A stretch of DNA of 62,426 bases from Clostridia bacterium (GTDB lineage Bacteria; Bacillota; Clostridia; Oscillospirales; UBA644): the NCBI GenBank assembly GCA_017623475.1, contig JAGAPC010000039.1, positions 1-62,426 of the forward strand, in the 5' to 3' direction. The stretch's first letter is position 1. Each line of letters begins with the position of its first letter. The position numbers and the translations under genes are program-made. Below, piece by piece: positions 60,344 to 62,426 of the stretch. Below the pieces are notes generated by a model that worked only from the letters and a program-made list of their open reading frames with translations, had not been told where the DNA came from and did not search any database.

Positions 60344-61864
60344 CTTTTCATACACCACCTTGCTAATAGTCACGAAATTACCCACGTATTGGAAGGAACG
60401 GAACTGTATTCCCAACTGCAAACCGCCCTTTTTAAGTACGCCGAGGGGAAGGGCGAACTGCAGAGCCGCCGGGAAACCTTGGAAAAACTGTATGCCAATG
60501 TGGAAGGTGCCAACATTGACGGTGAATTGACCGCCGACCTGGTAGGTGACTACATCTTTACCGACGCGGATTTTCTTCGAAACCTTTCCACCAACCATCG
60601 GAACGTCTTTGAAAAGATCTTCGACGAGGTTAAATACCTTTATAAGGTTGCTACCGCCGGGAGTAAAGAAGCCCGGGAGTTGGAGAAGATCAAGAAGACC
60701 TTTGAAAAGGTGTATCGCGAAACCGATGCACAAAAAAACACCGCCGAGAGTGGCGGTACGAAATATTCCATTGTTGCGTTGGATAATGGGAATGTCTATG
60801 TTAAGGCGAGCCGTAATGTCATAAAGGGAAAAACACGAAAAGAACAGCGAAGGGATATTACGAAGTTCTTCTCCAATCTATTAGAAAGACAACCATCACT
60901 GGACATTCATACCATTGGTGGAGACATTCTTACAATAACCAAAAGAGACACGGCCTGGAAGGCTAAGGATGATTATAAAAGTGTTTCGGGTTATCCTGTG
61001 AAATTAACAGACGAAGAGTTTGCAGTAAAGCTGCGTGTTGAGGCTCACATAGACGAAATTGTAGAAACATCATCACAACGAGGGTATAGTCCTGACAGTA
61101 AAGGGCACAGTTTCGCAAAGAATGGATTTACATACCACCGGGCATATTTTGAAGATTTTGATGGGCAATATTATGAAATTACTTTTTCGGTAGGACATAA
61201 AGGCACGGTGGCTACGGTCTATAACGTGGGAAAAATAAAAGCAAGCGTTACACCTTCAGCTAAAATAATAGCCGTAGTGGGGTCAAAGCCCCTTGGTGGA
61301 ACACCTGCTAATAATATTATACCACAAAACAATCAAAATGTCAATAGCCAAAATTCCCTTTCTGCAGAAAACGAAGATCTTCCTACCCATGGGTACCGAA
61401 TTTCAGGGAAGGATGTTGCCTTGGACGAGCCTTTGCCCTTGCGGGAAAGTTCCTCTGTTTCCAACGAAGCCGCCGCCGAGGATTCCGAAACATTGTACAC
61501 CCAAGAGGAACGGTCAAAACGCTTGGAGCGAAAACTTCAGCGGATCGACAAGCGACTGGAACGGGAAAAGGAAGACCTCAAAGCGGAATTTGAAAACCGC
61601 CGGCAGACGATGGAAGAATCTCTTGGAGATAAAAACGATTTTGTCAGCAACCGAGCTTCGGAATTGTACGAAGAACTACGGAACCTGAAAAAGGGAATTC
61701 GGGCGTCGGAATCGTTGGGGTATCTCTTAGATCACGGTTATCCATGGAGCGACGTAAAAACGGCGCTTTTGAACATCAAGAATCGCCCCGGGGCGCTTCG
61801 GGAACCGTGCCCCGGACACCCATTCACTCCCGCCCCTTTCGATTCTTGCAATCTCTTCAGATAA
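60344..61864 (+). pseudogene. Fragment of a phage/ICE large polyvalent protein
   Basis: The frame opens after a TAA at 60341 without a start codon or ribosome site. It begins with a metallopeptidase-like HEITH (HExxH, 60371-60385) and VLEGTELY. A middle part (about 60760-61320) has KYSIVALDNGNVYVKAS, HSFAKNGFTYHRAYF and EITFSVGHKG, the pattern of Barnase/EndoU/RelE-fold (BECR) nuclease domains in phage polyproteins. A charged coiled coil (about 61490-61700) and ASESLGYLLDHGYPW follow. The known-type sequence ends near 61790 in mid-helix, and a short unrelated tail leads to the stop. Both ends are lost, so it is a relic. Confidence 0.8.
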
Positions 61865-61960
61865 AAAAGGGATACCAATTCTTCGGACGGCTCTCCTTAT
61901 TTTTACGGGAAAATCAGGAGCCAAAATATAGACTTTTTTCAAAAATGAAGCACTTTTACC

Positions 61961-61989
61961 TTGACAGGCTTGAAAGATTGTGTTATAAT
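61961..61989 (+). promoter_or_regulatory. Consensus promoter of the tRNA-Ser region
   Basis: TTGACA, 17 bases, TATAAT, 38 bases before the first tRNA-Ser-like sequence. Confidence 0.88.
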
Positions 61990-62027
61990 GTATCACGGTA
62001 TAGCGGTTTAAAGCCATATCACATATT

Positions 62028-62053
62028 GGAGAGTTATCGAAGCGGTCATAACG
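62028..62053 (+). pseudogene. Duplicated 5' 26 bases of tRNA-Ser
   Basis: Positions 62028-62053 are identical to the first 26 bases of the tRNA at 62201 (acceptor strand through D-arm). The rest of the tRNA is missing here. Confidence 0.9.
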
Positions 62054-62160
62054 GGCACGACAGCCGAAGCGCCGCCTGTGGCGGAAGGAGCGAGGGTGTC
62101 GTGGCGCAGCGGTCTGAAAAATCAAGTACCAACGGATACGCAGATTTTTCAGGGCACCGC
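62054..62160 (+). other. Structured spacer between tRNA-Ser copies
   Basis: Nested palindromes: CACGACA/TGTCGTG (62056-62103) around CCGCC-TGT-GGCGG (62072-62084), then GCGGT-CTGAAAAATC paired with GATTTTTCAG-GGC-ACCGC (62109-62160). It would be transcribed between promoter and tRNA. It has no coding capacity. A small RNA, processing signal or mobile palindrome are all possible. Confidence 0.5.
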
Positions 62161-62200
62161 AAGAGGGCACGGAAAAAGTTTTTCATCAAATTAAATATTC

Positions 62201-62289
62201 GGAGAGTTATCGAAGCGGTCATAACGAGGCGGTCTTGAAAACCGTTTGGGCTCACGCCCACGTGGGTTCGAATCCCACACTCTCCGCCA
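62201..62289 (+). tRNA. tRNA-Ser (UGA anticodon)
   Basis: The acceptor stem GGAGAGT/ACTCTCC, discriminator G and encoded CCA are present. The anticodon arm GCGGT-CTTGAAA-ACCGT gives UGA; the extra arm is long (class II), and GTGGG-TTCGAAT-CCCAC is the T arm. It reads UCN serine codons, mainly UCA. It appears to be transcribed from 61961-61989 through the duplicated segment and spacer. Confidence 0.97.
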
Positions 62290-62319
62290 AAAGGGTTGCA
62301 TAAAATAGATGCACCCACA

Positions 62320-62346
62320 GAAAACCCCGATTTTATCGGGGTTTTC
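62320..62346 (+). terminator. Terminator after tRNA-Ser
   Basis: GAAAACCCCGAT and ATCGGGGTTTTC pair over 12 bp around a three-base loop. No gene is visible in the remaining 80 bases of the window. Confidence 0.9.
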
Positions 62347-62426
62347 GCCGTTTTTACGGTCAAAAAACACAAAGGTAGAATGACAGATGAAAACCGCCTA
62401 TTTTGCCTAAACCGAGAGATTTGAAC

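Follow-up and report, generated by a model that had tools for sequence, protein, structure and literature searches.

The window analysed here, the whole 62,426-nt contig JAGAPC010000039.1 of a Clostridia bacterium (assembly GCA_017623475.1), contains a single tRNA by ARAGORN, a tRNA-Ser(TGA) preceded by a promoter-like site, a partial copy of its own 5' end and a structured spacer (Table 1). The sequence GGAGAGTTATCGAAGCGGTCATAACG occurs exactly at 62028-62053 and again at 62201-62226 (start-to-start spacing 173), the first occurrence matching bases 1-26 of the tRNA from 173 bp upstream of it. We ruled out a chance repeat by comparison with related contigs, where an exact direct repeat of at least 20 nt at the window's geometry was found at 0 of 390 control positions. 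Both the exact 26-base copy and the promoter ahead of it had been described in an initial annotation made from the sequence alone, and both are borne out here; the structured spacer described there was recovered as well, in the form of two conserved hairpins, although the two 26-nt copies are separated by 147 nt (62054-62200) and not by about 107. Structure in this region is above chance both when folded as RNA (z = -2.95 for 62054-62200) and as DNA (z = -4.86 for 62054-62170).

Table 1. Features of the tRNA-Ser leader region in the window
Feature	Coordinates	Strand	Evidence
Promoter-like site TTGACA-17-TATAAT, sigma-70-like, extended -10	61961..61989	+	12/12 consensus matches; reads into E and tRNA-Ser
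Exact copy of tRNA-Ser bases 1-26	62028..62053	+	Repeat search; ends at E boundary
Element E: GGGC - hairpin 1 - GGCGCA - hairpin 2 - AAGAGGGC	62053..62168	+	Covariance-model match, 116.7 bits, E-value 6.0e-22 for its genome; DNA matches elsewhere in genome
Hairpin 1: 10-bp variable outer stem, tandem G.A/A.G, 2-bp GC stem, CCGCC/GGCGG inner stem	62056..62103	+	Helices 1-3 of covariation analysis
Hairpin 2: conserved base GCGGT/ACCGC, variable 10-bp stem, GGC bulge on 3' side	62109..62160	+	Helices 4-5 of covariation analysis
AT-rich stretch from E to tRNA-Ser	62169..62200	+	Local alignment with leader 61995-62027
Intact tRNA-Ser(TGA)	62201..62289	+	ARAGORN; Rfam tRNA 55.6 bits
Terminator-like hairpin 3' of tRNA	62320..62346	+	12 pairs, then T-rich tail

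The two hairpins occupy the 5' ~115 nt of the spacer and belong to an element, here called E, whose first G is also the last base of the 26-nt tRNA copy. Past position 26 the native tRNA-Ser continues as AGGCGG; in the window no more tRNA bases follow 3' of E, and the copy stops exactly at the E boundary. The 3' 32 nt of the spacer are AT-rich and leader-like, and their local alignment with the leader (score 26, reached by 49 of 2000 shuffles that preserve base composition only) gives a weak hint that this stretch may be a duplicated leader that has since diverged. The 26-nt copy sits at the native distance of a tRNA start from its promoter, with a gap to the -10 box of 38 nt: at E-free loci the tRNA directly follows the promoter at native spacing, and by eye it starts about 12-32 nt past the -10 box at same-family loci with neither E nor an upstream copy (L188, L189, L192, L193, L194 and L202).

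The surrounding sequence carries further repeats. A second repeat-like hairpin at 61777-61848 (outer arms CAAGAATCG/CGATTCTTG, motif CATTCACTCCC, fold z = -3.25) lies within the 3' end of ORF 60389-61864, and motifs similar to the CATTCACTCCC hairpin occur in T-loop copies beside tRNA-Ala, tRNA-Leu and tRNA-Arg at other loci (L010, L163, L164). The phage relic that had been placed just upstream of the tRNA was not confirmed, this one ORF having been tested and giving no convincing Pfam or PHROG match. At the other side, the last 163 bases of the window (62264-62426) match the end of contig C16, after a tRNA-Gln, at 97%, with weaker relatives after tRNA-Pro and tRNA-Leu at the ends of contigs C19 and C13. 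Contigs C2 and C16 both break off at GAGATTTGAAC, a tRNA T-loop read in reverse, which points to a multicopy sequence as the probable cause of the assembly break there.

Element E is a family of its own with covarying stems

E is a two-hairpin element of about 114 nt, forming its own family and not representing tRNA debris. Because the core of the spacer belongs to this dispersed family, which also occurs far from tRNAs, we reject the collapsed tandem tRNA that the initial annotation had offered as one origin of the spacer. Across copies, the 10-bp outer stem of hairpin 1 can have any sequence and the base of hairpin 2 is nearly fixed, with the tandem pairs in hairpin 1 being G.A in 115 and A.G in 100 of 126 copies. 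At gathering score, tRNA was the only Rfam 15 family to match the window or any of seven E loci, leaving E unmatched and ruling out a known RNA family at Rfam thresholds, and relaxed cut-offs (E-values up to 10 for the window and up to 5 for L009 1-3000) gave nothing convincing. We also set aside a likeness between hairpin 2 and the tRNA-Trp anticodon arm, because by reading the usual base of E is kept unchanged beside a tRNA-Trp with a different anticodon stem.

We quantified stem conservation in two alignments, A4 (14 hand-chosen copies of one loop type) and A5 (115 distinct copies, fitted to an A4-based model and hence biased towards its structure). In A4, 96.9% of stem cells pair, with a covariation score of 0.541 against 0.129 for shuffled alignments and at most 0.101 with slid partners; the corresponding values for A5 are 94.7% and 0.573, against 0.142 when shuffled. 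Changes in the A5 stems are two-sided in 907 cells and one-sided in 36, and the 238 cells that are not Watson-Crick comprise 48 G-U, 30 A-C and 160 other combinations. Because two-sided changes far outnumber one-sided ones and G-U pairs are few, the two arms of each stem appear to change together, a pattern that copying at the DNA level would fit better than slow RNA compensation.

E is dispersed across gut Clostridia

Using a covariance model built on 14 copies (R1), we found six copies of E in the window's genome, namely the window copy plus five more; a DNA search of the same genome with 61940-62426 matched 62060-62169 to C31:15106-15215 and to four places on C6. One side observation concerns C6, where the first 860 bases (L009, 1-860) hold tandem E between broken tRNA-Met-like 3' halves and a palindromic piece of ~32 nt splits the T-loop. 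R1 also matched 11 of 20 genomes of the family, all five of the carrier genomes chosen (2 to 9 matches each), and 64 of 197 sampled genomes of the order, spanning 35 of 110 genera. A conserved-core pattern found E in 6 of the 20 family genomes, in one IMG/VR contig and in at least 117 stretches of species genomes. Among the matches listed, carriers are nearly all Clostridia, such as Ruminococcus, Faecalibacterium, Gemmiger, Fournierella and others, the outliers being one Melainabacteria and one Paludibacteraceae record, which may be binning errors. Plasmid records gave no match, and phage records gave two weak ones, both in unannotated human fecal phage records.

E is associated with tRNA genes in several layouts

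To place E in context, we took the 115 pattern-found arrays among the matches listed and dropped 37 with short flanks, leaving 78; five loci duplicating genomes already included were left out, and 15 of 141 parsed copies had no clean 5' arm. A tRNA or fragment was counted if it measured at least 16 nt and lay no more than 200 nt to the left or 250 nt to the right of E, with 390 random positions on the same contigs serving as controls. Among the matches listed, a tRNA or fragment flanks E in 62 of the 78 arrays (8/390 controls) and lies on both sides in 34 (0/390), and exact direct repeats of at least 20 nt span E in 28 (0/390). This enrichment applies to the canonical subfamily, because the pattern used the conserved core. 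The commonest partners, again among the matches listed, are tRNA-Ser and tRNA-Trp (20 each), followed by tRNA-Pro (10), tRNA-Met (5) and tRNA-Gln (4), and ARAGORN reported a complete tRNA in 19 of 36 stretches around R1 matches in other genomes.

Three layouts recur. In the first, a partial 5' tRNA copy, E and a whole tRNA follow one another, as in the window and at L018, L046, L111 and L147; in the second, a whole tRNA with its terminator is followed by E and then by a 3' piece beginning at the T-loop (L043, L119, L128); and in the third, E lies antisense to a tRNA-Gly or tRNA-Gln, past its 3' end (L010, L022, L070, L145). E is additionally found within 3' tRNA-Trp fragments that start at the anticodon loop (L080, L086, L088, L092). 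Two further observations concern individual loci. At L119, L038, L128 and L235, E follows a complete tRNA with inverted tRNA bases just before it and a direct 3' copy after it, which together would close E in a stem. L018, an IMG/VR contig, holds a tRNA-Pro 5' copy, two tandem copies of E and a whole tRNA-Pro, and the adjoining genes resemble large serine recombinases by eye.

The remaining 16 of the 78 arrays among the matches listed have no tRNA nearby. Examples, with genes named by reading the sequence, are L037, where E follows guaA, and L039 and L062 in Faecalibacterium, where it precedes a nanA-like gene; E also occurs with a sugar permease on one side and a nanA-like gene on the other. 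At the guaA and sugar-permease ends, the last bases of the host gene make up one hairpin arm of E. At L031, L037 and L152, E starts inside the final guaA codons (TGGGAATAA); these bases serve as the 5' arm of hairpin 1, and the 3' arm is complementary to them.

Copies, targets and candidate enzymes

Three genomes carry near-identical copies of E in unlike flanks, mostly outside tRNAs; those of the window's own genome are more diverged. In G026, four copies are 90-100% alike and their flanks agree at only 20-28% of the 60 bases to the left. G197 has three identical copies, which share 12-13 nt next to E and are unlike beyond, and by eye also CGGGATG...CATCCC arms outside the hairpins, with none obvious at the window copy. 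G086 has nine copies, of which the seven compared are 91-100% alike, mostly inside a dispersed palindrome of which we found eight uninterrupted copies (e.g., TTGGCTCCCTCTGG/GAGGGAGCTGTC, the slash marking the insertion point). Reading the insertion point from this palindrome gives G/(G)AGGG, again a G/AGG-type site. Likewise, among the matches listed, 17 arrays have an uninterrupted target nearby, with G second past the junction in 16 and AGG next in nine. Near-identical copies in unrelated flanks, together with uninterrupted copies of one target, show that E moves.

Flank-to-flank alignment was possible in 39 of the 78 arrays among the matches listed, and in 17 of these the left copy ends exactly at E. 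The flank repeats in the 39 are long and variable (17-118 nt), such as 84 nt, 98% identical and abutting E on both sides, at L049 and L145, and 78 nt at L070; a target-site duplication of fixed short length is thus not what is seen. By reading, the G086 insertions have no obvious target duplication, and long duplication is therefore not a constant feature of E.

We looked for a mobilising enzyme in genomes of the family, which are mostly incomplete, and none could be linked to E. Of the 11 E-bearing genomes, five had Y1_Tnp, the transposase type that mobilises IS200/IS605-type or REP elements, and none had the reverse transcriptase domain RVT_1; of the nine others, three and two did, respectively, so that these mostly incomplete genomes do not support RNA-templated spread of E. 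The 2.4 kb separating two copies at L163 holds one long ORF, with no transposase recognised on inspection, and no autonomous element sharing the ends of E was recognised in this interval or through the two Pfam families. In the window, the 147-nt spacer (E plus 32 nt) holds no integrase, as an integrated element flanked by a pair of tRNA fragments would.

The tRNA-Ser locus in relatives

Comparison with related genomes, along the lines proposed in the initial annotation, placed E between the promoter and tRNA-Ser(TGA) in four of five same-genus genomes (G000, G016, G017, G019), with a promoter-like site upstream of E by eye at L020, L021 and L023. The 5' tRNA copy accompanies E in only two of the four, G000 (26/26) and G017 (a 25-nt exact run), none of at least 12 nt being found at the E loci of G016 and G019; the 26-nt repeat may thus be a later or independent event. 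At the G017 locus (L021), promoter, 5' copy, E and tRNA stand in the window's order with diverged sequence. Among the same-genus genomes the stretch from E to the tRNA has diverged as well, and E is still paired with quite different stem sequences. In the fifth genome (G018), the E-free locus L199 has a 43-nt copy of the tRNA-Ser 5' end, reaching to the anticodon loop, which is followed by an unrelated spacer and a second, complete tRNA-Ser; L201 has the same arrangement. These E-free copies indicate that integration-type scars occur at tRNA-Ser.

Origin of the window's arrangement

Our preferred reading, to which we give a probability of roughly three in four, is that the spacer arose when E, as a non-autonomous mobile element of MITE-like type, inserted at the G/AGG of a tRNA-Ser copy, with an intact tRNA retained. 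E would tend to enter tRNA sequence at G/AGG-type sites, here after tRNA-Ser position 26, and, given the cost that disruption of a serine tRNA would carry, its insertion would have survived only in a form keeping an intact tRNA-Ser, whether through duplication at insertion or through a pre-existing partial copy. Bases 1-26 would stay as a stub at the native promoter with the complete tRNA following E; transcription from 61961 should place stub, E and tRNA in one precursor, from which E would presumably be removed through normal 5' processing. We infer that this particular copy of E arrived by insertion and that the duplication came with it rather than from an older partial copy. On this last point the loci point both ways, the tRNA-Gln cases favouring duplication made at insertion and L199, L201, L173 and L226 a pre-existing copy. 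Of the three origins that the initial annotation had offered, an insertion with a 26-base duplication fares best, since the core of the spacer belongs to a dispersed, mobile family, although the repeat is confined to two of the four same-genus E loci.

A secondary explanation, markedly less probable, reverses the order: the partial copy came first, left behind as a scar of site-specific integration or by deletion of a tandem tRNA, and this redundant fragment received E later. The E-free 43-nt copies at L199 (same genus) and L201 fit such a sequence of events, as do L173 and L226, where E lies inside a tRNA fragment and the next few tRNA bases resume beyond it, and the tRNA-Trp 3' fragments starting at the anticodon loop. 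In the window, by contrast, the copy ends at the E boundary with no resumption, as in the 17 of 39 alignable arrays noted above. The att-like scar suggested initially is supported only in part, by these 43-nt copies and by the partial copy beside an intact tRNA, but not by a 147-nt spacer without an integrase.

That E is instead a functional RNA kept in tRNA leaders, with the 5' copy and E forming a switch for tRNA-Ser maturation, we consider improbable. The recurrent promoter-E-tRNA-Ser(TGA) order in four of five same-genus genomes, the pairing kept while the leader diverged, and the conserved internal loops of E with their tandem G.A pairs speak for such a role. Folding of the predicted precursor, a check also proposed at the outset, lends it a possible mechanism: in ViennaRNA, whose energy model ignores tRNA tertiary structure, pairing of the acceptor 3' strand with the left copy or with the true 5' half gives -90.1 and -89.7 kcal/mol, within 0.4 kcal/mol of each other, with predicted pairing probabilities of 0.86 for the left copy and 0.11 for the true 5' half, and shuffling the left copy brings the true pairing to 0.86. 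Under the insertion reading too, because the two acceptor pairings are near-equal in energy, the misfolding foreseen in the initial annotation is possible on paper, and competition between the two 5' halves may impose a folding cost on tRNA-Ser. However, the 5' copy is absent from two relatives, copies of E are also found in antisense orientation to tRNAs (Gly, Gln), downstream of guaA, in the gap between permease and nanA-like genes and in dispersed palindromes, and the excess of two-sided over one-sided changes (907 vs. 36), with 48 G-U against 190 non-pairing cells, is unlike what selection on RNA pairing is expected to leave. An assembly artefact, i.e., a chimeric or collapsed tRNA repeat, is very improbable: the window does end in a repeat common to other contig ends, a sign of repeat-broken assembly, but L021 has the window's order in diverged sequence, and further assemblies (L018, L111, L147) repeat that order.

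Returning to insertion of a mobile E, we tentatively extend this reading, in a form that we regard as doubtful for now, to propose a mobile system, so far undescribed, that acts on single-stranded hairpin DNA and has E as its non-autonomous form; such a system would prey on tRNA genes, leave an intact tRNA beside a broken copy, and have the stems of E rewritten as whole complementary arms in DNA. A single element, dispersed and recognisable by its structure, explains a set of unusual tRNA surroundings in gut Clostridia. If E is mobile in the way proposed, even elements much smaller than prophages would use tRNA genes as landing sites, and tRNA fragments of a new origin would turn up in genome annotation. 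Scarcity of one-sided pair changes, in turn, offers a concrete way of telling structure that arises through DNA-level copying from structure under selection as RNA.

Comparison with known systems

Small mobile palindromes and integration-derived tRNA fragments are both known kinds of sequence. In E. coli, the RtT units of tyrT follow tRNA-Tyr and carry its 3' end. Like the window, the tyrT repeats and RtT RNA involve a repeated unit with a tRNA piece beside a tRNA gene in the same transcript; in contrast, E precedes tRNA-Ser and accompanies the 5' end of the tRNA, and the Rfam RtT model has no match in the window at gathering score, nor in 61950-62426 at E-values up to 10.

An E-like element tied to tRNA genes across the order was not found in Rfam 15 or in the open-access literature searched. 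One study of structured RNA candidates from the human microbiome lists 3,161 from gut bacteria, 250 of them palindromic (PMC8040213), and E may be among them; the passages compared here make no mention of E or of a link with tRNA genes.

Fragments of tRNA genes are a recognised outcome of integration (PMC9897764). Those left by integrases, at anticodon-loop or T-loop attachment sites, resemble the window in placing a partial copy beside an intact tRNA, and E differs from such scars in its length of ~114 nt, the absence of an integrase, its use of other tRNA positions, its occurrence in either orientation and its additional non-tRNA targets. From MITEs and REP/BIME sequences E differs in not being defined by a simple terminal inverted repeat, in its two unlike hairpins with conserved internal loops, in its enrichment at tRNA sequences and in that a partner transposase was not found; like them, it is short, non-coding, dispersed and strongly structured, with several copies per genome, some in tandem and often after genes.
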